Source: Clytia hemisphaerica (lineage: Eukaryota; Cnidaria; Hydrozoa; Leptothecata; Clytiidae). From it: DNA of 64,000 nucleotides. Location: positions 310,001 through 374,000 of the forward strand of contig CACVBU010000276.1 of assembly GCA_902728285.1 (NCBI GenBank), in the 5' to 3' direction. Position 1 is the first letter of the stretch. Each line of letters starts with the position of its first letter. The position numbers and the translations under genes were made by a program. Shown here piece after piece: positions 1,758 to 64,000 of this stretch. A model generated the notes under the pieces. The model had not been told where the DNA came from. It did no database searches and saw only the letters and a program-made list of their open reading frames with translations.

Positions 1758-3327
1758 CTATACATGTGGTGTTATCTGTTGACAACCTCCATCCATTTCG
1801 ACAGCTGCATTTGTAAGAACCATCAGTATTGGAGCATATTTGTTGACAGTTGTGTGCGTTGTTCAATTTCGATGCACACTCGTTGATATCTTGAATTAAA
1901 GAAAATTATGAAACAATCTAGATTTATGCGGACCATACCAGCGGTCCGAAATTAATGCAATCACGCCTCCAGTTTTTGTTAATAAATATTTCACCCCATC
2001 ACATCTGCAAATCAGGACCCTCACTTATATGGTTGTTTTTGAAAGAAAACAGAATGAATAGACAAGCATGTCAGAAAGATGGAGCTCAGTCGGTTAGGAT
2101 TTAAATGAATGAGGCTGTAGTAAAACGAATATGTACCTGTACATTTCTTGCTTTTACCCACTCGTTCATAACCGTTTCGACAAGGACATTGGAAAGAACC
2201 TTTGGTATTTTTACATTTGGAATTGGGATCGTAGCAATGATGGCTATTTTCTTGACACTCGTCAATATCTAGAGAAAATTGAAGAGGTGATAATAGATTA
2301 TTGAGTGTAACTTTGAGGTGACTCTGTCTTTGTTAAACTTTGGTTCTTCAGGAGTCCTAATAACGCCACTCTAACATTCTTCTAATGAATACACGCTTTT
2401 TTATATAAGAATTCAGATTTCAGATTTAGAACAATAGGCCTATTGTTTTTAGAACAATAGAAAAATAAGAATAATGCTCACCCTCAGCCAAAGTGCACTA
2501 TTCTTATCAAGAAAAGTGTTTAGCGGAGGCAAATTTGTTGATGTGTAGATTTTGAATGGACCATCATAACCACTGACCTTTGGATATACCCTGGACACGA
2601 TCTCGGCCAAGAAAATTCTTTGATCGGAGATTTTGAAAGTGGTCACTTATGGTAGCACTAATCAATGTTGGTGAAAAAAAATTAATCGGAAAATTTCATT
2701 GAATTGCAAATTGACCCACTTGAGCAAGTGCTATCATTGGGGTTGCCACATCTCTAAAAATTCCGATCAAAGGTGGGTGGGTATAGCTTGGTCCAGGGTC
2801 CAGGGTAAATATAGGTCAGTGGCCATAACTTGTTCGTGCGATTGTAAGAATACAGAAGATGTTCTGTTCTTACCTACACAACGGCCATCGATCATTGTGA
2901 ACCCAACTCTACAAGAACACGAGAATTCCCCTGGATGATTTTGACACACTTCACCAGGTCCCCGACATGTTGTCTGACATTCATCAACATCTGAATGTGC
3001 AGAACATAATCTTGATAAGTTTTCATTGACTTTCTTAAAAACATCAGTCATGAAGGATTTTTGAGTATTCTCAAAAAGGGAAACAAAGTACGTTTCATGG
3101 TATGTATGCCTAAGTCAGTATAATGCATATATACTGTAAGTTGTTGATAATTATAAAATGAGTTTCAAATAAATTTGGTCTCTAGTTCTGTTTACCAACG
3201 ACTTTTTCATGAAAATGAAGAAAATTTATATTAAAAAAGTTACTGCTGTGGGCAAGAAACTTTTTACCTTCACAAATTTCTACTTTTCTGCTAAATTGTA
3301 TTTGTTGGTAGCCTGCAGCACATTGGC
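1758..3327 (-). CDS. EGF-like exons of a secreted PLAT/EGF protein (downstream part)
   Basis: Four minus-strand exons with AG acceptors and GT donors all begin and end in phase 1, so they splice without breaking frame: 3327-3268 (Cys-containing linker, GQCAAGYQ...EICE), 2990-2874 (39 codons), 2268-2137 and 1889-1758 (44 codons each). The last three are EGF-like domains with the six-Cys pattern. They begin DVDEC, DIDEC and DINEC, the calcium-binding EGF consensus, as in fibulin, fibrillin and hemicentin families. The product would be extracellular. The exon train starts in phase 1, so it needs an upstream exon, and the PLAT exons at 4795-6175 are the natural source. No stop codon was found before the foldback at 1-1453, so the 3' end may lie left of the window. 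Introns carry a MITE at 2392-2519. Confidence 0.85.
2392..2519. mobile_element. MITE, TA-duplication family with CACGC ends (intronic copy)
   Basis: Starts TA|CACGCTTTTTTATATAAGAA and ends near ATTCTTATC..AAGTG|T. The interior (CAATAGGCCTATTG and the CTCACCCTCAGCCAAAG segment) matches the copy at 11030-11182 in inverted orientation. TA flanks suggest a Tc1/mariner-type source. It lies between two EGF exons. Confidence 0.65.
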
Positions 3328-10375: not shown

Positions 10376-12684
10376 TTATTTCGTATTGACGAACCAATCA
10401 GCTTTCTTAACCCAAGCGTCACCTCCATTTTTGCGCCATAATCCGTCACCAGTTGCTACGAGAAAAAAAATTCTAACAGTTCTAATGCTCTATTAAAGGT
10501 CAGAGTTGATTATGTAGGAAAATGATGACATCGAGAATATGTTTACTTTCGGCAATCGTATGGTCGAAAATAAGAAGATAGTCGGACGTAAAATTCAGAT
10601 TACAAGTTATGCTAATATTAAATAAAACTACACCGTAAGGGTCAGGAACGTTCAGTAAAGTGCATTGTAAGGGCCTTTCCACTGCTCAAAGACTGCACTT
10701 TATAAAGGGTCCGATTTTGAAAGCCATTTTTTTGGCTCCACATGCCGTCGTTTAGAAATCGAGTGCCCCCTTCCCCGGGGTAGGGACTAACATGTGCTGG
10801 CGCGGCACAGAAGGGGGAAACTGTTCTAACTTTTCTTTAAAAATACTGCGTAAACAAATGGTTTGAGATAGGTTAAACGTGTATACTATTAAATATACAC
10901 TGCTATATTTGTTAGTGGTCTCTATTTGATTGCAAAAAAGGGTTAAAGCTTAAAGCGAATAGTCTTTAGTAATACCCGATTCGAATATGAAAAAGATTTT
11001 CTAGAAAATAAATTCTCCCAATCGTAATACACGCTTTTTTTTTTATAAGAATAGTGTACTTTGGTTGAGGGTGAGCATTATTCTTATTTTTCTATTGTTC
11101 TAAACAATAGGCCTATTGTTTTAAACCCGAAATCTCACCCTGATATTCTTATAGAAGTTATTCTTATAAAAGAAAAAGCGTGTACCGTATACACTCAGCA
11201 TGATTACCTTGCCATTTAATGTTATTGTGATCTCCTTCAAGATTAGACGGTGGGTTAGCTTCCACACCAATTTTATTGGCGTCTTCTGTATTTTGGAAAG
11301 AGAATGAAGCCATATCCGGGATCGCTTTATCAGGAATGTATTTCCATTTGTTTTTAGCTCCATCAAGTTTCAAAACGGTGATCTGGTTTCGAGCCAATGC
11401 GTAGAATTCTTGATCCTTACTCGATTTGCCAAGCATACATCCAATACGATGATCCATTGCTGTCAGAAGCAGATAGAATGTGGTGTACAGACTTTACAGA
11501 TAATGCTGATGGCCACCGTAAATGTAGGTTTTCACTTAACATACAGGCCATATTACAGTTTTACAAAATGAAGTTGCTTGTAGTTTCATATAGAACTCTC
11601 TAGGTAACAAAAAAGTCAGTCAAAAAGGCATAGGATGAATATTTGATGATTTCGATGAGTTTTTGATGAATAATCTTTACTCTGATTGACTCTAATAGAA
11701 AGATACAAGTCCCTCAAATTGGAGGAAAAAAATTATAATTTTGTAGGTGTATACTCACGCCTAAATAGTTCGCTTGTGGGGTGGTATTGGTAGCATGCTG
11801 GAATTGCTCTGAAAGTGAAAATTCAAAAAGGTTGAACATCCAACAAAATTCAGTAACTACTTCATAGAGACATGGTCATTTTTCAGCCTCTCTAAAGCCT
11901 CGTTCAATTCACGATATGCACCATTGCAATGTCTTCCAAGGACCCAACAGCTGATTGGTTGCAAGTGATGTATTGATTGATTTTACAGGCCACTTGCAGT
12001 TGGGTCCGCGGTGTAATGTCAGAAGACATTGCAATGGTGCATATCGTGAATTACCGTGATTATCACAGGCCGCAATTTACTCTGTGGGGACAGATTTCTG
12101 CGAGAATAAAAGAAACCGTGGCAATCATCAATATCATACAATATGTCGTTTGTTTTGAGTCTATCCATGATATGAATGATGCGCCATTGCAATGTTTTCA
12201 GGCCGTTTTCCACTTTCGCGCGAAATGGGCGACAGTTTTTTTCTTAACCTTTTATGCCTGAAGAAAAGATTACTTCATAAAATAGTTTTGCGCGAACAAA
12301 AAAAAAAGTTGAAGGAATTTCTACTTTTTTCAACCGTTACGTCAATTTCGACCAATGAAATTGCTTCATTTTTCAACCGACCAATGACCTTACAAAAACG
12401 ACCAAAAAGTTTTCGCTCATGTCGCGCGAAAGTGGAGACCTTTCCACGGAACCAACTGCTGATTGGTTGAAAGTGACATATTGACTGATTTTACGTCACA
12501 CACAACCAATCAGCTGTTTTAGGTCCGTGTGGTGCATATCGTGAATAGGGCTAGTTATTTACTTTTCACTACCATACTTCGAAACCACTCCACATACAGA
12601 AAACTTACGTTGCAACGTGTTGATTCATGCAGACATAGAAGTCACCATTGTCCGGATTCAAATAAAATCCACGTCCGTAATAAT
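10376..12684 (-). CDS. Exons 11-14: cysteine-containing C-terminal region
   Basis: Exon 11 (12684-12609) encodes YYGRGFYLNPDNGDFYVCMN; exon 12 (11808-11759) a short AIPACYQYHPTSELF piece; exon 13 (11459-11208) begins MDHRIGCMLGKSSKDQEFYA and continues with ITVLKLDGAKNKWKYIPD; exon 14 (10455-10376) encodes ATGDGLWRKNGGDAWVKKAD and the stop. The 25-codon exon 11 and 17-codon exon 12 are confirmed only by phase closure and splice sites. The Trp, Gly and Asp pattern suggests a separate compact C-terminal domain that I cannot name. Confidence 0.82.
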
Positions 12685-15600
12685 CTGTCAAAAAGGGAAA
12701 AAATAATAAGTTTAAATTTGAAGCATTCAGTCAATCTTTATATGTAGACTTATTTGATAGACCAAAGGCGAAAATGTCGAGATAAAAAAATATGACTATT
12801 TACAAGCCTCTATAATATGCGAGTTTTTTCGACTGGTTTTTATTTTTTTCTCGAACCGCTTACTTTATTGACTTATTGGCTTGAGATAAAGGGCTACGAA
12901 ATTAGGTTATTCTTGTATTATCCAGTACTTAAAGCCTGAAGCTGGGACTGTTCGTAGTTCTTTGGTTTTTATAAGATTGTTCTGTTATAAAACTGTGTAC
13001 TGCCCCTTTGTCAATATTGAACTCAGTACAATATATGACTTACGAGCTTTTGCTCTTGAGCTTTTCGGGATTGTAGGCGTTCTTGGTAAAACTTCCATTG
13101 TTCTTTTGGCAGCTCTGAAGTATTCTTTCCATTCTCCATCTCGGTTCTGGAAGGACACTCGGACAGGAATAGCGAATTCCACGGTACCAGTTTTGGGTGA
13201 TTTCGGACGATCCAATTTAACGTTGATAGCATGTGTAAACGCGTCGTTGAAGTAAAACATCTCTTTGTCAATCTTAAAAAAAAATCCATTAAAAAACTTA
13301 GAAAAATGTTTTTGTAAAAGAGAAAGCTAAAGACTCTGTAAGGCAGAGCTAAAACGATTCTAAAACAGACTTTAACATGCTCTAATAATATCCCTAATTA
13401 CCTTGAAACGTTGACCAAGAACTTTTGAGATGCCAGTAGATGAGCTGGCATCAGACTCGTACGCGATAAACGGTGGCAAATAATATTCGAAACTAACATT
13501 GTATGCCACTGCTTGTGAAAGCTCTTTGTCGTGACCAACAGATACATCAACTACGAATTCGTCCCTGTTAAATGTTAAAAGTGAATAATGAGTTTTTAAC
13601 TTTAGGGAATCATCTATATAGAACATACACAAAACAATCCCTCTTCCCTTTGAGTGCATACGTAACCTTCTATATGGAGGGCCCCTTAGGTTTATTTTTC
13701 TGCAAATGTGCACCTTTTTGGGTAGAAACCATGTCAGCGTAATGAGACTAATTCCCAGAATCCCACTTAATAACAAAAACGAGGCCACAATCAAAGCGAA
13801 TAGACTTTAGTCGCATTTTTAGTGAGGTCTTCGTAAGAGCCTTTGTAGTTTGAATGTTTTCTTCACTCCAATAAGATTTTAGGTCCTTTCAGGTGTTGTT
13901 TGTCCTCTATTCCCAGATCCACGTACGTATTTTTTCAAGGAATAAATACTACTACTAAACGGATACCTATTCAACTAGCCTGGGTTTCAGCTAAATTACA
14001 GTTATTAAAGTTTTAACAGCATCTGAAAATTATTATTAAGTCTATGAGTTATGAATTAATTTGATTGCACTTACGTATCACCAACCGTCATGTTGACTTC
14101 GGGGTATGGGACCGAGGGCGTTTTCAAGGTTGTTGTCAATTTAACTTGACCAACCCACACCATTTTGGGACGTGCAATGACTCCAGCACCAATCCAAAAA
14201 GCTGCACTTTCGGTCACGTTAGAATGGTCATTGAAATAAGCTGTGAATTTAATTTTGATTTTATTTGCATCAACATCATCCGTTGTAGACCCTTTGTTAG
14301 ATGTTTGACCAAGATTGATTACTGATTGGTCGGTCAAACTTTTATCTGAAGTTGTTTGGCGATCGGTAGGTGATGGAGAGTTGGTGGCGACATTAAGATT
14401 ACTTCCAACTGATTCGACCCCGAATTCTGTGATCGATGCAATAGGCCTGTCTTCAGTCTTTGGCATAACCAACTATAAGAAGAACAATGAATATTTTGAG
14501 AGTTGCTCCGATGTTATTATCTCGTTCTTATCCTCTCTGGTCTGTAAAATACTCGTTTATGTGTTATTATATACTGTAGAACAAAAAGATTATATGATAT
14601 TTATTTGACCTCCTCGTGTCATCATCTGAGTAATGTTTTTGAAAAGGCGGGTTCTGAGGCGCTAGGATGATCAAAAAATTAATCTCAACCTCATATCTTT
14701 GTTAACAGTTACTGTATTTCAACTGAAATTTTTTATTGTTCAGGGAAATTGTAACAACATCATTTTTCTCATTTTATAAATGTCTAAACTCACCTCGACT
14801 TGAATAGGTGATCTCATACGGACCATCAAAATCTCGATCATGAAGTCCATTTTTTGTCCAGGTGCCACTGTGGTACCGTTAGGTTCAGCCACGTAATAGT
14901 TAATTGTTGGGGTACCAGTCATCAAGCCAGTAATTTCTTGTTTCATGGTTCTTTTCGGGTTGGCATTAGCGTTCTTGTAGTTCAAATACATGGTTGCAGC
15001 AATCTCAAGGAGTGGACTCACATCATCAGTGTTAGCGACTTTAAATTTCAATTGGAACTCTTTTACTGATCCCAAAGCTGGAAATAAAGATAAACATTTT
15101 TTAGTTTCTGTTTCAGCATGTATGAATGTTACGGATGTATATACATAGAATGATTTGTTGAATCAAACTTTCATTTTATAATAGACCTGCAAAAAATATT
15201 CTTCTATGAATTATCATGAAAAGATTAAACTTTTACCATGGTTCAAAATTTTAACGTCTCAGACGGACAAAACATTTAATTTCGGTAAAAAACCTCTTCT
15301 GGTGTTTAATGACTTTGATTTCAGAGTTTATTCGGCAGCGACGGGTTTTATGTTTCAGCAAAGTGTAAACACAGGTTTTGTCGTCTCAAAACTCCGCAAA
15401 AAATTATTTTGTAATTTAGGTTAATTCGGGAAAATAAATTCGAAACTAAATTGTGAATAAATTCTCAGAACTTTGCTTTGAACAGTAACGTAGTTATTAC
15501 TGTGAACACTGTTTGATTAGATCATAGATTCTTCCTTACCTATATCTCCAACATCAAATGTTATGTAAGTGGCGTTTGAACCGGCGTTGTTTTTGGTATA

Positions 15601-18600
15601 TGTATTTGAAACTCCATCATCCGTCAAAAGTTCTGTCAGAAGACTAACTGTAACAGCATTGGCAGTCTGACTTGAAGTGTTTGTATTATGTTCGATCTTA
15701 ACATTGAATACGACTTCATCACCAATAAACAAACGTGTTCCATTAGTGGCTTGGTCACACGTCACTTCGAATGTCAATGCAGGCTCATCCTAAATTTGAG
15801 GAAAAATTAGTTTTTTATATATATCCAGTCAGCACATAACTTTGCTTTAAATTTCAGACATTATAGATGTAATGGTGACGGCGAAAATATGTTTTTTCGC
15901 CAATTTAAGAGAAATCTAGGCTACTGGATGGCATTCTCATCCTGCAACGGATTTGTGTCCCTTTTACTACAGTAGAGACTCTTAACCGAACCTCTATAAC
16001 TCGAATGTCTCCTTAACTGGGAAAAGCCATCTCGTCCCTTCATAATGCCTTATACTCCATAACTCGAATTTTCCTTAACTCGAACAAATTTGTGTTCTCG
16101 TGCGGGTTCTAGTTATGGAGTCCCACTGTACCTACAGAATTGTAGACTGCGACTCAGACTACCAGATAACAGATGTCCAGAATTTTGAAGCAAAACTGTC
16201 CTTTGTGCTGGATTGAAATAAGAAACATTCATCATGTTTAATTTAATAACTCACTTTTTCAACGACGAAGCTTGTTTGGTCAACCCACAAGACTGAATTT
16301 CCAGCTTGGATACCAGCACCAAAATAGCGTGTTGTCCCGTTCTCCAGGAGCTCGTGATCGTTAATCTCAACGTCGTACGTGATGGTGATAGTGCGATCGG
16401 CGTCAGGTGTTGTATCGTCACCGACCTATGAAAATGATTTATCGATAGACTATTTGCTCACTAAGTTTTACACTTGCGATAATAAACTGTCCGTTTTCTT
16501 CTAACATGACAGGAGATGTTTTGTGTTATTGAAACTAGATTTTCATTAATTCAAACTTTTGATTTAAATCTTCTTTTGGAAGCTTCTTTGGAAAATTTTC
16601 TTATCAATCTTACGTAACAAGGATGGACTTTTTATGAAGATGGTTTTACTGAAAGTCGATGTCAAATTGTTTTTCTAGTGGGAGATATTGACCATTGGGT
16701 GATGGATTGCCAATTAAGTAAAAAAGTTATGAAGTATGTGCATTTCCTACCGTTATGTTCCCAAAGTCAATGGTGAGTCGGTCAATTTCATTATTCATTT
16801 GAGACGAATAATCTTTTTGGACTGGGCTTGCAAGGTTGCTACCAATAGCTGAACCTTTGTGTGAAACAGTTGCTGACTTGATTTTCATGAAGATAAGATC
16901 TTCAATATTGGTAGTTAATTCGACCAACAATGAGTAGTTCAATGCGGGTAAGATCATCGACATTTCCATGCTGACGTCAGAATGAACCGTAGCCTCTGTG
17001 AGAAATAAAAGACTTATCATCACAGGTTTTATTTTTACATAAGTGTTCCCATTTCATATCAGACACATATTTCATATCAGGGCATTGTCTGCCAATTGTT
17101 ATATTATGCTGATAATATAAGTAAAAAACTAAATTTAAAGAAAAACAACAATGTTTTTAAAATTGAGCAAAAGCTTAATCGAAAAGCTTTTGCTCAATTT
17201 TAAAAACATTGTTGTTTTTCTTTAAATTTATTTTTGGAATGGCAAAATTTCAAAGAAGCAAAAAACTGTTTTTAATTTCCTCTTTCTTGGTAATCTTGCT
17301 CCACATATGTGTCAATTCAATACCAAAAAGCTTGTAAATTATAATTGACGAGTAAACAAACAATATAACTCTTATGTAAAGAGAAAACCTTTAACGACGA
17401 ACCAAAATTAATGATTGGAGTAACAATAGAGAAAGTGCTGCAACAGAAAGATGGGTTGACTTTCACTAGAGAAAAGATACCTTAAAGGAAGACGTTTTGA
17501 CTGGAGTTTAATTCTGCGAATGACGAAAAATTAATTTGGTGGGAAATTTAATTGAATAATTTAATCGTTATCAAATTTGGGGAATTCGTGAAATTAGTAT
17601 ATGTAATCACATGATAACGAGTGCAATTAGAGAATAATTGCACGAGTGTTTTTTTTGTTATTAATTTAAAATCTAACATAAATTAAAATCTAAATTAGTA
17701 GGAAAAAGTCTCAATCAAATCACTTTTGAGAATTCAATAAAATGATACTTACGTCCACTTGATAGACCGGTCACGTTGACATCCGGAAAGACCCCAAAAA
17801 CTGTTGGACTTGAGACAAATTCAGTACCAGCAAAATTATTAATATCTTGGTTCCCACTGACACTCATTTTCAATTCCAATCTGCTCAGGGGCCCGATTCC
17901 TGGTTTAACGATTCCAGATATATTTGCAATTTTGACTTCATTTGCAGCTAAAGTATTTACAGTGAGTTCAATTCCATCTCCAGCTTGCTTTTGTGAGTCA
18001 AATTGATCAAGAACTGGTGTTGTTTGGGTTAGATCAATCCAGTCACTGGTGATCAAGACTTTAACAGCTGTATAGGAAGTTCCAGTGGAGCCATTATATG
18101 CCATTCGAATTTTGAATGTGATTAATTCATTTCGATCAAAGTAATATGAATTGGTGAGGAAAGGACTTGCTGAAACCACTACTTGATGAGATGTCAGCAC
18201 CTAAAAGAAATTCAATATTACTCAATATTAGTAAAATTTAGTGGTATGCTAAGCATTAGAGAGGAAAGCTTACACGTTTTTCGTTCATAAGCAACACTTA
18301 ACCGTTCTTAAATTTTCGAATTTGGATAAATTATTTTCATTACTCAATTATTTACTGTTTTTACTTACAGCTCTTCTGGATCGGCTATGTTCAACTGAAC
18401 TATCGTACATGTCATCACTTTGAATGTCAACTGCCATACATGTTGCTATAACGACACAACAAAAGTGCTTCATTAAAAAATTGGATGTAGTTGGACGAAT
18501 AATCAAAGAAGGTACTTATTTTATTCTTCAGTTTAGCTCTTTATAGAAATTATAGTGAGTAATTTTCAAATAGGGAGAAAAGCTCACTCTCGGATCTGCT

Positions 18601-20445
18601 TCTGACTACAGTTACCCATCTAGCTGTGATGTCTCCATCCAGTCCGTTGATACTACTACCTTTTCCCCCTATATTTTTTGTTTACTCTTAGAGAATGTTA
18701 ATTTGTATTTCAATTTGTTAAGTATGTCCTCGGAAATTTGTTGTATCTTTTGGAAAAATTGTTTCTAAGCTTCCAAATTATTAGGAAAAATTAGAAATAG
18801 GTTCGAAAACAACCCTATAAAGTTTCAATTCATTTCGATAATTTTTTTTTAATTTTTTTTTTGCCATACCCGTGTTGTTGATAGCTCACTATCATAACAC
18901 CCCTGTCTCAGGCAGTGACCCGATGAAGACTGGCCATGAAAAAAATAATTTCACAGGGTATGAATTTGAGGTTTTAAAAGCTCACTTGGGTAAGAAACTT
19001 TTAACTCCAGGGTAGTGTCAACGAGTCTGGTTTTCCTAGAGTTCATTAAAATGTTATTTTTCTCGATTTTGACCTGATTGATACGATCTTTGTTTGACCA
19101 GGATAAGACCATCAATTTCTCAGTTTTTATCGGGATAGACAATTTACTTATTCATTAAAATTAAGTCATTTTGGCAATTCACCGGCTTATTCACCAGGGC
19201 GGATCTGGGTCAGTGATACAGGGGTGTATCTTAATTTTCCCAGCTGACTAAGACCTATTTTGATGTTTTTCTAGGTGGAAATCAAAGACGTTAGATGAAC
19301 ATTTAATTAATGTTTGAAAGCTTGGTTTAATCCCTACCTCGGATCCATATAGTATCTGAAGTGTTTTGTTCTGTCTCTATACTAAGATGTTGCGAATTCA
19401 CTTTTTGATAAATTGAGATTGCTCACGGGAATTTTTTGACCCGCATTCCGCGCGATCGTGTTTAATCGCCCGCGTGTGTACGCTCTGTGAATTCTGTCTG
19501 CTGTATATGGGTACATGCAAGAAAAAGCTCCTCTCCTCAGTCTTTTGAGACTTTAAGAAGATTGGAGATTGTCCTAACCCCCCAAATGGAAATTCTAATT
19601 TTACAGGCACTAGCAGGGTTTACAGCCCGTTTGCAGCAGTCCCACTAAAGAGTCCTGTAAATCCCCTCAGAATCGGCGATCGGCTCCAGAGTGTTGGAAA
19701 TGATCTAAAATCATTTGTTTAAGAAGTTAATACCTTGACAGGGTAAATAAAGTTATACAGGTCATGGCAAATAAAGATATGGTATGGTTTATCTTTATTC
19801 AGATTCCACTACAACTTGAGTGACCGAGTGGGTAAGGCGGTGGGTTGGTGTGTTAGTGATAGTCATTTTCGAGAGTTCGAATCCTATACGGTGCGTTATA
19901 GTGTTATTTTGTCAGCATTGACCAAACTTTTTCTGGTTTTATGAGCTCTTATTGATATTTTTGAAAATTCCCGTTATATTTTTAAGAAAAAAAAAAAATT
20001 CTAAATGGTCACCTCAGTGCAGTTTGACTCAAGTACAGTATTTCAAAATAGATAAGGTTGGTTAGTGGGTGGAGAGTCAAGAGTCAAGAGTCATGACTTT
20101 CCCTTCTCTTGAAAATCCAGTATTCCAAAACTTTCAACTAAAAAATGCATAAAAATCGACTTTCGTCTTTTTTTATTATTATCACTTTTTTCAAAACCAC
20201 AAGTGAAAAGAAAAGCAGCTAAAAAATGATTGACAGGTGCGGGTTTGCTCGCGCGGGTTAAAAATTCTCGTGAGCAATCTCGTTATTTATCAGAATGTGC
20301 GAATTCTCAATCGCTCCCATTTTAACAAAGCTGTACAACGATTGAAAAATAATGTGAGTTTGTTTGGAAGAGAAACCAACATACCTGATTCTGGGTAGAA
20401 GACAAAAGCCACCCATACCACACTCAAAACAAGCATTTGCCTCAT
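10376..20445 (-). CDS. 14-exon gene for a 927-residue secreted protein with tandem beta-sandwich modules
   Basis: Minus-strand exons: 20445-20385, 18445-18369, 18200-17753, 16995-16751, 16425-16255, 15789-15540, 15077-14794, 14472-14075, 13564-13402, 13272-13044, 12684-12609, 11808-11759, 11459-11208 and 10455-10376. All borders are AG/GT, every phase matches the next exon, and the 2784-nt CDS ends in TAA. The protein has a signal peptide (about 1-20), a furin-type RSRR at 42-45, then three related modules (about 47-334, 335-644, 645-775) of hydrophobic beta strands resembling DUF11 or integrin alpha-leg folds. The C-terminal region (776-927) holds three Cys and ends AWVKKADWFVNTK. About a dozen N-X-S/T sequons and no later membrane span fit an extracellular, probably matrix or adhesion role. 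I do not recognise the family; the fold is inferred from the strand pattern. Confidence 0.88.
11030..11182. mobile_element. MITE, CACGC-ended TA-duplication family
   Basis: TA|CACGCTTTTTTTTTTTATAAGA at the left and TTCTTATAAAAGAAAAAGCG|TG..TA at the right form inverted repeats flanked by TA. The interior CAATAGGCCTATTG is shared with the copy at 2392-2519. It lies in the last intron of the 14-exon gene. Confidence 0.75.
11908..12546. mobile_element. Intronic foldback repeat with nested inverted copies
   Basis: TTCACGATATGCACCA at 11908 is matched in inverted orientation at about 12035-12052 and again at 12530-12546. A segment with ACCCAACAGCTGATTGGTTG (11943) has an inverted partner before 12035 and a direct-like partner near 12448-12470. 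No transposase. Located in the intron between exons 11 and 12. Confidence 0.55.
13044..13564 (-). CDS. Exons 9-10: third, partial module (residues about 645-775)
   Basis: Exon 9 (13564-13402, phase 2 to 0) has DEFVVDVSVGHDKELSQAV followed by the strand AYNVSFEYYLPPFIAY, aligning loosely with the start of the other modules. Exon 10 (13272-13044, phase 0 to 1) has TGTVEFAIPVRVSFQNRDGE and ends with a basic stretch PKSSRAKA. The GAG..WV.Q ending of modules 1 and 2 is absent, so this copy is shorter or diverged. Confidence 0.8.
14075..15789 (-). CDS. Exons 6-8: second beta-sandwich module (residues about 335-644)
   Basis: Exon 6 (15789-15540, phase 0 to 1) has RLFIGDEVVFNVKIEH and AVTVSLLTELL, aligning with the start of exon 3. 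Exon 7 (15077-14794, phase 1 to 0) contains APGQKMDFMIEILMV. Exon 8 (14472-14075, phase 0 to 2) contains VESVGSNLNVATNSPSP and ends AAFWIGAGVIARPKMVWVGQ, matching the GAG(I/V)..(L/V)WV.Q signature of exon 5. The modules look like an internal duplication, but intron positions inside them are not identical. Confidence 0.85.
15970..16128. mobile_element. Short pogo/mariner-like MITE
   Basis: Bounded by TA on both sides, with CAGTAGAGACTC at the left and GAGTCCCACTG at the right. The interior has AACTCGAA words typical of pogo-type non-autonomous elements. It lies in the intron between exons 5 and 6 of the 14-exon gene. Confidence 0.65.
16255..18200 (-). CDS. Exons 3-5: first beta-sandwich module (residues about 47-334)
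   Basis: Exon 3 (18200-17753, phase 0 to 1) has the strand pattern YYFDRNELITFKIRMAYNG followed by a serine/threonine loop and AVKVLITSDWI. Exon 4 (16995-16751, phase 1 to 0) carries LPALNYSLLVELTTN and IGSNLASP. Exon 5 (16425-16255, phase 0 to 0) ends the unit with RYFGAGIQAGNSVLWVDQ. The same landmarks recur in exons 6-8. Intron 3 (16996-17752) contains a perfect 46-bp-arm hairpin at 17131-17229. Confidence 0.85.
17131..17229. repeat. Perfect 46-bp-arm inverted repeat in intron 3
   Basis: Arms 17131-17176 and 17184-17229 are fully complementary, separated by a 7-nt loop (AATCGAA). The arms are about 74% AT. No similar copy was seen elsewhere in the window. A transcript would fold into an uninterrupted 46-bp duplex. 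Confidence 0.9.
17478..17600. repeat. Partial copy of the TACCTTAAAGGAAG repeat family
   Basis: TACCTTAAAGGAAG followed by GGAGTTTAATT and TTAATTTGGTGGGAA matches the left side of the element at 33488-34185. The right boundary is not clear. Confidence 0.5.
18369..20445 (-). CDS. Exons 1-2: signal peptide and propeptide with furin site
   Basis: Exon 1 (20445-20385) encodes MRQMLVLSVVWVAFVFYPES. An upstream in-frame ATG would add 13 polar residues (MSLCGASV...), so the internal ATG is chosen because it puts the hydrophobic stretch at the N-terminus. Exon 2 (18445-18369) encodes an acidic, polar segment ending HSRSRRA. RSRR fits the R-X-K/R-R furin consensus, so the mature protein probably starts at about residue 46. 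The first intron is nearly 2 kb and contains the MITE at 18898-19226. Confidence 0.85.
18898..19226. mobile_element. CACCCCTG-ended MITE with 8-bp target duplication
   Basis: Starts CACCCCTGTCTCAGGCAGTG and ends TACAGGGGTG. Flanked by TATCATAA (18890-18897) and TATCTTAA (19227-19234), 7 of 8 identical. Non-coding interior. An 8-bp duplication suggests a hAT-like source. Confidence 0.75.
19805..19890 (+). repeat. tRNA-like sequence (pseudo-tRNA or SINE head)
   Basis: GTGACCGAGTGGGTAAGG resembles the A box of Ser or Leu tRNAs, and GAGTTCGAATCC is a good B box. The ends do not form an acceptor stem, so a working tRNA is unlikely. Confidence 0.5.
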
Positions 20446-30620: not shown

Positions 30621-31990
30621 TTATTTACAAATTAATTTAAATTTAATCGATAAACCAACGCCATGGATAAAGGTACGACAGTTTCGGCAAGGACAAGTAG
30701 TGGGCCTCCATTGCTTGATTTCTTTTTTAAATTCATCTGTGTTTTTAAGTTTTTTAAAGTCATCGGGAAGGGTAGCCCAGATTTTAGGTCCCAAGAAAGC
30801 TAAAGACGATTTTCCATTTATTTCACTTTCAACTACTCGAGTTTTGATTTAAATAGCTCTGTGGATAAGGATTGAATTGCTCGTTGATGGAAGGTGGAAC
30901 CATTGTCAAGTTTCAACAGATCTTCGAATGATGAGTTGTAGTCTGAGTAAACGATTCTCAAGCATCTTTTATGTAGATTGTTGATTTTATCCTCTAGAGT
31001 CCTGCTATGAAACATCCATATGAGAGGACAGTAATTGAAGTGGCATTTAATGAAAGCATTCATTAAGCTTCTTTTTTTCTAAACTGAGATATGTGCTTAT
31101 TCTGGCTAAGGTGGTTACTTTCTTGCAAAGATTTTCTATATGCGATTCAAACGTCAAGAGATTATCGAAGGTTACTGCAAGAATCTTTGACGTTTTGGTA
31201 TTGAAAACAGTTTCTTCTCTAATATTTAAACACCCCTGTCTCAGTGCCCCGGTGGCATGATTTCAGTACATGATTTTTTTCAGTACATGGTTTCAGTACA
31301 TGATTTTTTCCTACGTCACTGCAGTAATCAAATTTTTATTGCACTCATTTGTGAATTGAGATATAAATTGAATAAAGACAGCGACAATAAAAAACAGTTC
31401 TTGAATTCCCAAGCCATTTAGGATGATTACAAATGAGTGCAATAAAAATTTGATTACTGCAGTGACGTAGGAAAAAATCATGTACTGAAACCATGTACTG
31501 AAAAAAATCATGTACTGAAATCATGCCACCGGGGCACTGAGACAGGGGTGTATTTAAATAGAGCGAATCGTCACTGATGTTAACTATTAGCTGACATTTG
31601 TCAGCATTGCCAACCATTTGATTAATTGAAAGCCATGTTAAGATTTTTTCTGCTACAGAGCTTAGTTTACCACTTACTTCAATCCAGGTCGGAGCACTAA
31701 CATAGGGTGTCGTATCGTCCGCATAATTTGCGACCTTAGTATTCTCAATGATGAAAAAGAGGTCAGAGATATAAATATTGAAAAGTAGAGGACCAAGGAT
31801 GGATCCCTGGGGGACACCATCCTCGGTTCGTTGCCTACTTTTGTCTTTTGTTACCTATTTTCTAGAAAACTCTTGACTAACCTAGTGGAAAGGTCATCGA
31901 ATCCGTATGCACTAATCTTTGCTACAAGTAATTTGTGGCACATGCAATCAAAGGTTAGAAAGGTCGATGAGCAGTGCCCCAAAGCATAAT
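30621..31990 (-). pseudogene. Broken non-LTR retrotransposon (LINE) reverse transcriptase, 3' half
   Basis: On the minus strand, pieces of one protein occur in order. First come AYGFDDLSTRLVKSF (near 31890) and [17 protein letters not shown]. They are followed by the catalytic-box segment [10 protein letters not shown] (near 31705) and [14 protein letters not shown]. After a MITE insertion the order resumes with FESHIENLCKKVTT, NYCPLIWMFHSRTL, FLGPKIWATLPDDFKK and CPCRNCRTFIHGVG, then a stop at 30621-30623. This is the thumb and C-terminal order of Jockey/CR1-like LINEs. It is not functional: the palindromic MITE at 31231-31550 interrupts it, there is a frame change near 31075 and the 5' half is missing. 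Confidence 0.85.
31231..31550. mobile_element. Perfectly palindromic MITE inserted in the LINE
   Basis: Arms 31231-31352 and 31429-31550 are 122 bp each and read as exact reverse complements around a 76-bp centre. Ends CACCCCTGTCTCA / TGAGACAGGGGTG. The flanking 8-mers TATTTAAA (31223-31230 and 31551-31558) are identical. Perfect arms and duplication indicate a young insertion of the CACCCC family. Confidence 0.9.
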
Positions 31991-34640: not shown

Positions 34641-34778
34641 TATTATTTATGGGGACGTAAAAATAATATTTCTACCGTTTCATTTTCAGGAAAATAAAAA
34701 AAAAACAGTACAAGATAAGAAGAAATTGGTTTGCTCATAATCAGTACAACAGAAGAAAAAACGAAACATCAAAGCGAA

Positions 34779-35192
34779 ATGGTATTGTTAAATACCTTTC
34801 TACCTGTACTTGGGATTTTATCATTACTCTCAGGCGTATCATCAAAAGAGCTTTTGAGAGACACTGATTTAGAGGAGCTGCAAAAATGTAAACCGTCCCT
34901 CACCAAACACGTTATCGCAATCCCTGGCTGTAAACCTAAAACAGTTTTCAATATGGAATGTTCAGGTTTTTGCAAATCACTATGGAAAACTTTTGTTCAG
35001 CCAGGGACGGTCAATGAGAATTATTGCTCAGCTTGTATGCCCGGTAAAAAGTACGAGAAAATTTTTTTTATTGAATGTCTAAATGGGAAACCTTCGATAC
35101 CAGTGACAATGTTGATGTCTGAGACTTGTCAATGTCGTAAAATCCCATGTAACTCTGGTAATATAGTTGTTGAGGACAATAAGCTGACGTAA
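34779..35192 (+). CDS. Secreted cystine-knot protein, DAN/bursicon-like
   Basis: A single open frame of 137 residues. Residues 1-22 (MVLLNTFLPVLGILSLLSGV...) form a signal peptide. The rest has ten Cys at 37, 51, 61, 65, 83, 86, 100, 117, 119 and 124. C61-S-G-F-C65 is the C-x-G-x-C ring of the knot, YCSACMPG (82-89) matches the C-x-x-C-x-P step of the DAN, gremlin and bursicon families, and CQC (117-119) closes the knot. Known members are BMP antagonists (DAN type) or hormone subunits (bursicon type); sequence alone does not choose between them. The in-frame upstream ATG at 34731 would add a hydrophilic leader, so the signal-peptide start is preferred. An acceptor-like TTTCATTTTCAG ends at 34689, so a spliced 5' UTR is possible. 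No intron interrupts the CDS and no AATAAA signal is obvious downstream. Confidence 0.85.
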   Translation: MVLLNTFLPVLGILSLLSGVSSKELLRDTDLEELQKCKPSLTKHVIAIPGCKPKTVFNMECSGFCKSLWKTFVQPGTVNENYCSACMPGKKYEKIFFIECLNGKPSIPVTMLMSETCQCRKIPCNSGNIVVEDNKLT

Positions 35193-39728: not shown

Positions 39729-40291
39729 TGGCCATTCTCTTCTTTTTTTGCGATGTTCAAATTTTGTTTTTTCTAAACATTCAAAGGTCTTTGCGTTAAC
39801 AAGTGGATGGGCTATGATGGAGATTAAGTTATCACTAAAGTTCCTTGGGGCTGTCGATGTTAATAGCCACTCCAGGATTACTTAATTTGTCTTGAAACTT
39901 TTCCAAATTATTTCTAGTATTACCCAATGTTCTCTTTCAACTCAGTATGCTTGCTACTTACAATGGAATGCTCTGTCTCTTCACAGTAAATGTAATTAAT
40001 TCAAGCCCCTATTCGCTCTATCTTTTAAAACGAAATTTATGTTGTATATTCCTCATATTTTTAATCTTTTTCTATCTTTTTTTCAACACAGTACCATTTT
40101 AAATACTATTATCAAAAAAGATTGATTAATCTAAAAGTACCAACATCCAAAGCAGAGAGCGTTGGACACAACATGACCGGTATGTGATGAGAGAATAAAT
40201 GACAGAAAAAACTTTGTATGGAATTAAAATCGCAATACCATTAAAAGAGTATTTTTTTGTTGTACAGGCAAAAGAACAATAATAGAATAGC

Positions 40292-41674
40292 ATGAAAAGT
40301 CCAATTAGAATAACAGTATCAACGTTTGAAGATGATACCATCTCTACAGAAGGGCGGCTTTCCAATCAAAGCAGCAAAGAAACGTGTGAAGACCAGCAAG
40401 GTTCTGCCAAAGACATTAAATCAGCAAATCATATTGATGGGCAAGGCAACTTATTGAATCACAATACCATGTATAAGAAGAGCAAGAATCTAAATAAGCA
40501 GCCATTATCACGATCTTACTCTTCACCACCAGCCAACGGGAGACGTCCAATCAACTTGAACAAGAAATTATTAGAAGTTCCTAAAGTCGCAACTGTTTAC
40601 CAAGAGCCTTCAAAGATGCACAAAACTAAAGTGGTATCCATGCGAACTAAAGACAAAATCGGGGATAACAATCACGTGACTTATTACCCGAATCGGAAAT
40701 TATCGGATTCATGGATTGGGAGTCATATCAATGTAGCTGAAAACTTGATTAATGCAGAGGAGGAAAAACTTACAAATAAAGAACAAAGGAAACAATCAAA
40801 CGAGAAAAAAGATGGTAACCTTTTGAACACTGGGTCCAGTAGTAGCAGCAGTCCGTTTAAGCGTCCGAAAAGTGGTAGTAAAAGCAGCGGAAACTCACCT
40901 GTGGGTAGTTTCCGGAAGTTAAAAGACAAGACGAAAAACTTAACATCGCCGACATCGGAGAAAGCAAGTAGTGGTTTTTCAAGAGGAAGTTTCCGTAAAA
41001 ATAAAACGTCAAATACTTCAACCTCGTCGTCGTCGACGGAGCAAAAAGAACAACAAACAACGTCGTCGTCCCGTGGCAGCTTTCGTCGACCCAAGTTGAA
41101 TCTTAAGAAACTTGATCTTTCAGAGAACAAATTCTTATCAAGTATTACCAATAAATCAGGCAATAAAAATAAAGATTTGAATAACAATAATACCAATAAT
41201 AATGCATCGACCGTCGCCGAAACAATTCCGGAAAAGCAGAACTCGTTAACTGTTCCCGATGACAAAATGTCTCCCAAATCAGATAAAAAGACAGACAACA
41301 TTCCCTTGTTAACACCACCTGTTATAATTGATGATTTCGAAATGCGATTAAAGGAAACTGAAATCCGTGAAATGATACAACAACATTTTAACCAGCATTT
41401 AGAGGGGGTTGGGTATGAGCACGAGGTCAATGAGAAACGGAGTATACATTTAAGTCAACAGATTCATGATAACTTGAAAGTGATGACAGATGAAAACTTC
41501 AAATTCATTGTTTCCGTGTTTATTGGTGAGATACGAGACGAAGGAATGGAAACTAGTTCCCAGTGCGTTTGGGATCCGAAACAGGATTGTGTTGTGATGG
41601 GGTATTATAAGAATGATTCACTGTTTGCGATCGCAGTTGTTTTTGCGATTGCGTTGGATTCAAACGATTTGTAA
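40292..41674 (+). CDS. Tctex-1 domain protein (dynein light chain Tctex-type, DYNLT5-like)
   Basis: One 460-residue frame. The last 114 residues (from about 347) form a Tctex-1 domain: EMRLKETEIREMIQQHFNQH, then FKFIVSVFIGEIRDEG and C-terminal strands CVWDPKQDCVVMGYYKNDSL and FAIAVVFAIALD. Tctex-1 proteins are light chains of cytoplasmic and axonemal dynein or related ciliary adaptors. The N-terminal 340 residues are polar and basic, rich in Ser, Lys and Asn, and probably disordered. They hold three copies of G-S-F-R-(K/R) (in VGSFRKLK, RGSFRKNK and RGSFRRPK), plausible phosphorylation or microtubule-binding motifs. A long disordered N-terminus before the domain fits the TCTEX1D/DYNLT5 type better than short DYNLT1. 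The CDS has no intron. TTGTTGTACAG upstream may be the acceptor of a 5' UTR intron. Confidence 0.88.
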   Translation: MKSPIRITVSTFEDDTISTEGRLSNQSSKETCEDQQGSAKDIKSANHIDGQGNLLNHNTMYKKSKNLNKQPLSRSYSSPPANGRRPINLNKKLLEVPKVATVYQEPSKMHKTKVVSMRTKDKIGDNNHVTYYPNRKLSDSWIGSHINVAENLINAEEEKLTNKEQRKQSNEKKDGNLLNTGSSSSSSPFKRPKSGSKSSGNSPVGSFRKLKDKTKNLTSPTSEKASSGFSRGSFRKNKTSNTSTSSSSTEQKEQQTTSSSRGSFRRPKLNLKKLDLSENKFLSSITNKSGNKNKDLNNNNTNNNASTVAETIPEKQNSLTVPDDKMSPKSDKKTDNIPLLTPPVIIDDFEMRLKETEIREMIQQHFNQHLEGVGYEHEVNEKRSIHLSQQIHDNLKVMTDENFKFIVSVFIGEIRDEGMETSSQCVWDPKQDCVVMGYYKNDSLFAIAVVFAIALDSNDL

Positions 41675-62975: not shown

Positions 62976-63991
62976 ATGATGAATTTGTCAAACAAACTGT
63001 CAACACTTCTGTTATGTTTGGCACTCATCACACCCTCTTTTTCAGTCACGCCAAATGGAGGTAAAACTTAACATTTTCAAAGTAGGGCTTTATATTAAAG
63101 TGATAAGCATGATGATCATAAGTAATTTATTTGTTAAATATTTAGGTAATTTTTTCGCTACTCAAATCATCTGCCCTTGATAACAACCAGGTAAATATGA
63201 AGCTGTGATAAAAATTAATAAAAAGATCCTAGAATTCAGTTGGTCTGTATATATTTACCATGTGGACATAGCACCAGAGTATTGTTCATGCTTTAGGAGT
63301 CCTTCAGCAAACCTTATTTTTTATATTTCAGAGGCTTTCAAATTCACAGCAAAAGCCTGGACAGTGCAATTCTTTGAACCACGTGCTTACTCACATCCAG
63401 GAGATTCCTTCATCTTCGATTGCAGTACCAATGACCCTGAAGCAACTGTAACTTTACAAAGAGCTGAACTACGTGGTGGTAATTCGTATAAAGATGCTCT
63501 CGCAGACTTTGGTAATAGAATAACAGTGATGCCTGGCAAGCAGAAATTCTCCTTGGGAAATGTCATTGAAGAAGATTATGCAAATTATGGTTGCAAAGCT
63601 GTCGACCAATCAAACAAAGAAATATTATTGACCCTTGGTCGTCTCATTGTGAATAAAGTCCCTAGGACTATTGAGCCTGAGATTATACCTCAAGAGGCTG
63701 TATATAAAATCGAAACTAATGGTAATGATAAGATATCGTGTAAAGCACAAGGTGCCATTGGTGTTAGTGAATCTTACTTGAATTGGTATCGTGAAGACAG
63801 CTCTGGTCAAAGAACTTTACTAAATGGTGACCGTGTTGAACGTAAAGAAGAAACGACTACGACAGCTTACATTGACGTGGAAGTGTTACTTTTTAAGAAC
63901 TTTCAAAAAGCAGACACTGGGAAATATGTCTGTGTGAGGAAAGTGTTGAATAACCCTGAAACTGAAAAATCAATCACTATTGAACTTGAAG
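62976..63991 (+). CDS. Immunoglobulin-superfamily gene, first two exons (3' end outside the window)
   Basis: Exon 1 (62976-63060) encodes MMNLSNKLSTLLLCLALITP plus SFSVTPNG, a clear signal peptide, and ends in phase 1 at GGAG|GTAAAA. Exon 2 (63332-63991) follows the acceptor TATATTTCAG and stays open for 219 codons to the donor GAAG|GTACGT, again phase 1. It encodes two Ig-like domains: the first has SFIFDCS..EEDYANYGCKA; the second has DKISCKAQ, SYLNWYRED and KADTGKYVCV, the canonical Cys, Trp and D-x-G-x-Y-x-C residues. The protein is secreted or a membrane receptor or adhesion molecule; later exons would decide. Encoding two Ig domains in one exon is somewhat unusual, since each is often on its own phase-1 exon. 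Confidence 0.88.
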
Positions 63992-64000
63992 GTACGTATC

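Follow-up and report, generated by a model that had tools for sequence, protein, structure and literature searches.

The minus strand of the window (the whole stretch of DNA analysed here, 64,000 nt) carries a series of exon-like open frames, from position 20445 down to 10376, which raises the question of whether they form a single gene and, if so, what kind of protein it encodes. An earlier note on this DNA had proposed a secreted, modular protein of a family that it could not name.

Gene structure

Independent reconstruction from the raw sequence gave 14 exons (Table 1). The joined coding sequence is 2784 nt long and encodes 927 residues with a single stop at its end, in agreement with the figures of the earlier note. 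GT–AG borders are present in 13 of 13 introns, whose lengths range from 129 to 1939 nt, and nine of the 13 have GTRAG donors. GC content is 0.417 in the coding sequence versus 0.339 in the introns, and the RNY fractions by frame are phased in the former (0.389/0.171/0.270) and unphased in the latter (0.239/0.234/0.246). In first-order Markov simulations (2000 per exon), exons 3, 7 and 8 were each open in 0/2000, and the open-frame fraction for exons 4, 5, 6, 9, 10 and 13 was 0.0015–0.0315. The frames of the short exons 1, 2, 11, 12 and 14 (50–80 nt) are individually unremarkable (0.188–0.357), and these exons therefore rest on their splice sites and phase. With the same coordinates, intact intron borders and a clear coding signal, the in-phase 14-exon model ending in a stop is borne out, and the locus is a real protein-coding gene, as predicted from genomic sequence.

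Table 1 Exons of the 927-residue gene and inverted repeats in its introns (positions in the window).
Feature	Position	Strand	Content
Exon 1	20385..20445	-	Start codon and signal-peptide-like stretch, residues 1–20; top hydropathy windows; GT donor
Exon 2	18369..18445	-	Presumed propeptide with furin-type RSRR (42–45), then A46
Exon 3	17753..18200	-	Module A1 (~47–190), whole in one exon; open in 0/2000; weak strand-only model
Intron 3 repeat	17125–17235		Inverted repeat, almost perfect: 52-nt arms with 98% complementarity, 7-nt spacer; could be a recent hairpin or what is left of a small mobile element
Exon 4	16751..16995	-	B1, first part (~191–277)
Exon 5	16255..16425	-	B1, second part (278–334)
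Exon 6	15540..15789	-	A2, first part (335–417)
Exon 7	14794..15077	-	End of A2 and start of B2 (418–512)
Exon 8	14075..14472	-	Bulk of B2 (513 to ~628) and start of A3; weak strand-only model
Exon 9	13402..13564	-	Module A3
Exon 10	13044..13272	-	End of A3 and linker towards the C-terminal domain
Exon 11	12609..12684	-	C-terminal domain, Cys 794; recovered as an exon of the same gene by genome search
Intron 11 repeats	11906–12518		Inverted repeats with arms of 31 nt (100%), 33 nt (85%) and 27 nt (85% and 81%); perhaps miniature inverted-repeat elements
Exon 12	11759..11808	-	C-terminal domain, Cys 806; shortest of the 14
Exon 13	11208..11459	-	C-terminal domain, Cys 825; start of the galectin-1-like stretch (861–910), probably a chance likeness
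Exon 14	10376..10455	-	End of the C-terminal domain and TAA stop

Predicted secretion and maturation

The six top-ranking 19-residue hydropathy windows of the protein begin at residues 3–8 (spanning 3–26). After residue 40 the best such window reaches 1.08, with no later membrane-like stretch, and from this pairing we take the protein to be secreted. The sole R-X-[KR]-R motif in the 927 residues is RSRR at 42–45, and the residue that follows it, A46, is the last of exon 2; a signal-like N-terminus followed by this motif, the criterion for furin-processed secreted proteins, is thus found at the level of sequence. There are 13 sequons and only five cysteines: Cys 23, ahead of the furin-type site, Cys 345, and Cys 794, 806 and 825, the last three all within the C-terminal domain. 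The chain from 47 to 927 has a computed mass of 97 kDa before glycans and a computed pI of 5.1; by module, the pI is 4.75 in A1, 4.31 in B1, 4.52 in A2, 5.36 in B2, 6.95 in A3 and 8.4 in the C-terminal domain. The signal peptide, the putative RSRR propeptide site, the many N-glycosylation sequons and the Cys-containing C-terminus described in the earlier note all reappear in this analysis.

Proposed module architecture

Judged by length and pattern, residues 47–772 would comprise five units of about 145 residues in the order A1–B1–A2–B2–A3. In sequence comparisons, B1 and B2 are the one module repeat with statistical support: their Smith–Waterman score of 94 was reached in 0/500 shuffles, the highest of which scored 53, with hhalign E 6.4e-6, tblastn E 2.8e-4 and 27% identity. 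When all ten module pairs were shuffled 500 times each, the other nine were unremarkable, the lowest being A1/A2 (37/500), and the A–A pairs gave 37, 169 and 68 of 500. At none of four widths did a block shared by the five modules reach significance (28, 16, 19 and 9 of 100). A three-way A block, which arose in 0/200 shuffles at width 20, 5/200 at 30 and 31/200 at 40, was set aside as proof of an A repeat because A3 falls in a different register. Since only B1/B2 is supported and the five modules share no significant block, we infer the five-unit rod rather than observe it. The tandem modules of the earlier note thus stand in part: a repeat is confirmed for the B pair, we would divide the chain into about five modules rather than three, and that pair alone is supported.

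B1 is interrupted at residues 277/278 by an intron that B2 lacks, the break in B2 falling at 512/513; these differing positions imply that the duplication is old or that the introns changed afterwards. Structure prediction covered single-exon pieces, and the models of exon 3 (A1; pLDDT 39.9, pTM 0.37) and exon 8 (most of B2, the part aligned with exons 4 and 5; pLDDT 52.4, pTM 0.42) are too weak to use. Both contain strands and no helices, which fits beta structure and names no fold. A Foldseek comparison of the exon 8 model (pLDDT 52.4) with the PDB returned 64 matches, none with E ≤0.001 and the best at E 2.8, and was judged meaningless.

Search for known families

The whole protein had no accepted match in Pfam, NCBIfam or the PDB, in line with the earlier note, which could not name the family; these libraries do not cover animal proteomes, and the protein is unnamed relative to the three of them. 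Its single touch in Pfam was Big_8 (9.1 bits, E 2), in scans listed to E 10, where the filters of HMMER let through few matches with E greater than roughly 0.1. NCBIfam gave nothing for the whole protein or per module, and A1, A2, A3 and the C-terminal domain scanned singly had no match in Pfam. Searches of the PDB by sequence returned galectin-1 chains alone for the whole protein (best E 0.023), nothing for A1–B1 or for B2, a best E of 1.1 for A3 and of 0.06 for a B1/B2 profile. The protein is named in no title or abstract opening among the literature found.

Scanned alone, both B modules touched Pfam profiles of bacterial surface domains, in each case below the curated cut-off: B1 touched GramPos_pilinBB (PF16569; E 0.0064, 17.8 bits versus 30.5) and GBS104-like_Ig (PF21426; E 0.019, 16.2 versus 26), and B2 touched Big_8 (PF17961; E 0.0028, 18.2 bits versus 22.9). 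The touches lie at about residues 244–308 in B1, across exons 4 and 5, and at about 567–605 in B2, in exon 8, and fall on overlapping equivalent stretches of the two modules. Among 10 reversed or shuffled control modules, the best E was 0.016, to a helical motif, and the two best real touches were lower; one of the controls, a shuffled B1, gave a touch at E 0.05 to bMG3, a sandwich profile from bacteria. We treat the paired touches as a sequence-based lead to the fold rather than as evidence of membership; no profile of Big_8 and its relatives matched over its cut-off. Bacterial surface Ig-like and pilin domains form surface-exposed beta-sandwich stalks. The present protein is like them in these touches (E 0.0028–0.019) and differs in its sub-cut-off scores, its 13 introns and the lack of a confirmed bacterial relative of the B pair. 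A pattern search with the B pair gave 33 hits in bacterial and archaeal genomes and 144 in viral contigs, 0 of them confirmed; the C-terminal domain and the mature protein had no pattern match in viral contigs, phages gave no match, and the best per-module E in PHROGs was 0.09. The Big_8 profile run over the protein's own genome, a weak test in that it reads exon by exon, matched only elsewhere (E 4.2). It is a long shot that this is a matrix protein confined to hydrozoans, with B modules that stem from the Ig-like domain of a bacterial surface adhesin or pilin; an ancestor would have acquired that domain, which was then duplicated, interrupted by introns and joined to a C-terminal domain with a new fold.

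The earlier note had read the modules as DUF11-like or integrin-leg-like, and this assignment found no profile match in the whole protein, in single modules or, by genome search, at the locus. A true but divergent member of either class, beyond the reach of profiles, would account for the pattern seen by eye in the A modules and for weak models consisting of strands only. The A modules do resemble DUF11 (PF01345) in strand spacing, by eye, and the protein as a whole, if its modules are as proposed, resembles the integrin alpha leg in having tandem extracellular units of sandwich size. However, neither DUF11 nor Integrin_A_Ig_1 (PF08441) nor any other integrin profile matched in Pfam, for the whole protein or per module. 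Genome-wide, DUF11 gave 0 matches and Integrin_A_Ig_1 gave one elsewhere, on contig C594, at a sub-cut-off E of 0.035; such searches read exon by exon and are weak tests, and the integrin search was nowhere over cut-off. The protein also differs from integrin alpha in having no integrin or beta-propeller match and no integrin-type transmembrane helix and cytoplasmic tail, with hydropathy after residue 40 never above the value given earlier. Our literature search found nothing on a DUF11 domain in metazoans; the DUF11 paper that it found is bacterial. On balance, divergent membership in either class is unlikely. A degenerate galectin-like lectin at the C-terminus is scarcely credible: phmmer aligned the C-terminal 152 residues with galectin chains over a gapless stretch of 49 residues, with E from 0.016 upward, but E 4.2e-5 was reached solely by a chain of two fused galectins, with per-domain E of 1.4 and 1.2, and the per-domain E in the next chain was 0.027. 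Gal-bind_lectin (PF00337) was unmatched in Pfam and in the genome search matched only elsewhere, on another contig (E 5.1), and since 17 residues remain after the matched stretch, the second half of the galectin fold is missing. Most of the residues that we take to be the galectin sugar contacts are not kept in the stretch. The candidate was rejected on the weak per-domain values, the unmatched profile and the half-absent fold.

Possible function

Modular secreted glycoproteins are a familiar kind of protein, and this one is most likely an ordinary scaffold or adhesion protein outside the cell. We give a roughly even chance to its being a glycoprotein rod, trimmed by furin and made up of some five beta-sandwich modules and a C-terminal domain, in an extracellular matrix or coat, where we infer the cleavage, fold, assembly and location. 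The chain would enter the secretory route, and signal peptidase and a furin-like convertase would remove residues 1–45, Cys 23 among them. What remains, the mature chain starting at A46, may then form an extended rod in which some five Ig-like beta-sandwich modules follow one another in the order A–B–A–B–A; the first three modules are acidic (pI 4.3–4.8) and the C-terminal domain is basic (pI 8.4). The rod could serve as a spacer, with the Cys-bearing C-terminal domain as a head for binding or cross-linking. The setting could be the mesoglea, the perisarc or some other extracellular coat, and removal of the propeptide may switch on assembly after secretion.

The same modules could belong to a secreted but non-structural protein, such as a regulated secretory, cnidocyst, mucus, glue, immune or egg-coat recognition protein, and the signal, propeptide and sequons would suit any secretory route. 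Unlike Cys-rich cnidocyst proteins, the present protein has five Cys in 927 residues, and no family match points to proteins of these kinds. In favour of such a role, PMC12549020 reports cnidocyte-lineage expression for 176 of 551 matrisomal genes (32%) of the sea anemone Nematostella. A non-structural role is the main rival of the structural reading, though the less likely of the two. Another reading is that two adjoining genes were wrongly fused, or short exons miscalled: the five short exons are statistically weak on their own in a model drawn entirely from genomic sequence. Nevertheless, the phases close at all 13 junctions, and the B1/B2 repeat spans an exon junction in either module (4/5 in B1, 7/8 in B2), an argument that has no equivalent for the junctions beyond exon 8. 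We regard such a mis-joined gene as very unlikely.

If the structural reading is confirmed, the rod would extend the set of extracellular proteins in hydrozoans by one unnamed component, with a C-terminal domain that has no name in Pfam, NCBIfam or the PDB. Orphan secreted proteins are candidates for traits particular to one lineage.

Host lineage and genomic context

The earlier note had also suggested a skeletal role. Contig C900 (1–10000) carries mitochondrial genes in which TGA encodes Trp, with COX1 identified by profile and the others named from their translations, in the order nad2–nad5–nad6–nad3–nad4L–nad1–nad4–cob–cox1. In PMC4655093, nad2–nad5 and nad6–nad3–nad4L–nad1–nad4 are collinear in the hydroidolinan Physalia, and the cob–cox1 boundary is discussed for hydrozoan mitochondria. 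The gene order is hydroidolinan-like, so the host is most likely a hydroidolinan hydrozoan and not a stony coral, as a coral skeletal matrix protein would require. Some hydroidolinans do calcify, namely fire corals and stylasterids, and a skeletal role thus becomes less likely rather than impossible. The contig ends within cox1, adjoining cob, as the same paper discusses for hydroidolinan linear mtDNA (PMC4655093). Under the bacterial code, ARAGORN detected no tRNA in C900 1–10000.

No second copy of the gene was found in its own genome. A search of the full protein against the 417 Mb genome (E up to 10), which scores best candidates only, gave 14 matches, one per exon of the gene itself, and no further copy was found at E ≤1 within 70 kb on either side of the window (14 stretches). 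Orthologues may exist in other hydrozoans or more widely. A match to the C-terminal part on contig C34 (E 3.3) contains a stop and was judged to be due to chance; it sits among open reading frames that, by inspection, resemble transposase remains.

Several other features lie in the window. The minus strand at 2024–3114, some 7 kb downstream of the 927-residue gene, has two frames in which calcium-binding EGF domains are encoded (E 4e-12 and 2.3e-6). A reverse transcriptase fragment (RVT_1, E 4.2e-12) is located at 31348–31854, and a plus-strand open reading frame at 34719–35189 with a DAN cystine-knot domain (E 6e-9) perhaps encodes a secreted protein of the BMP-antagonist type. The 462-residue frame at 40286–41671 is of low complexity in its N-terminal part and has a Tctex-1 domain (E 6.1e-22) at the C-terminus, and the frame at 63184–63999, with immunoglobulin domains (Ig_3, E 9.5e-9), continues past the end of the window.
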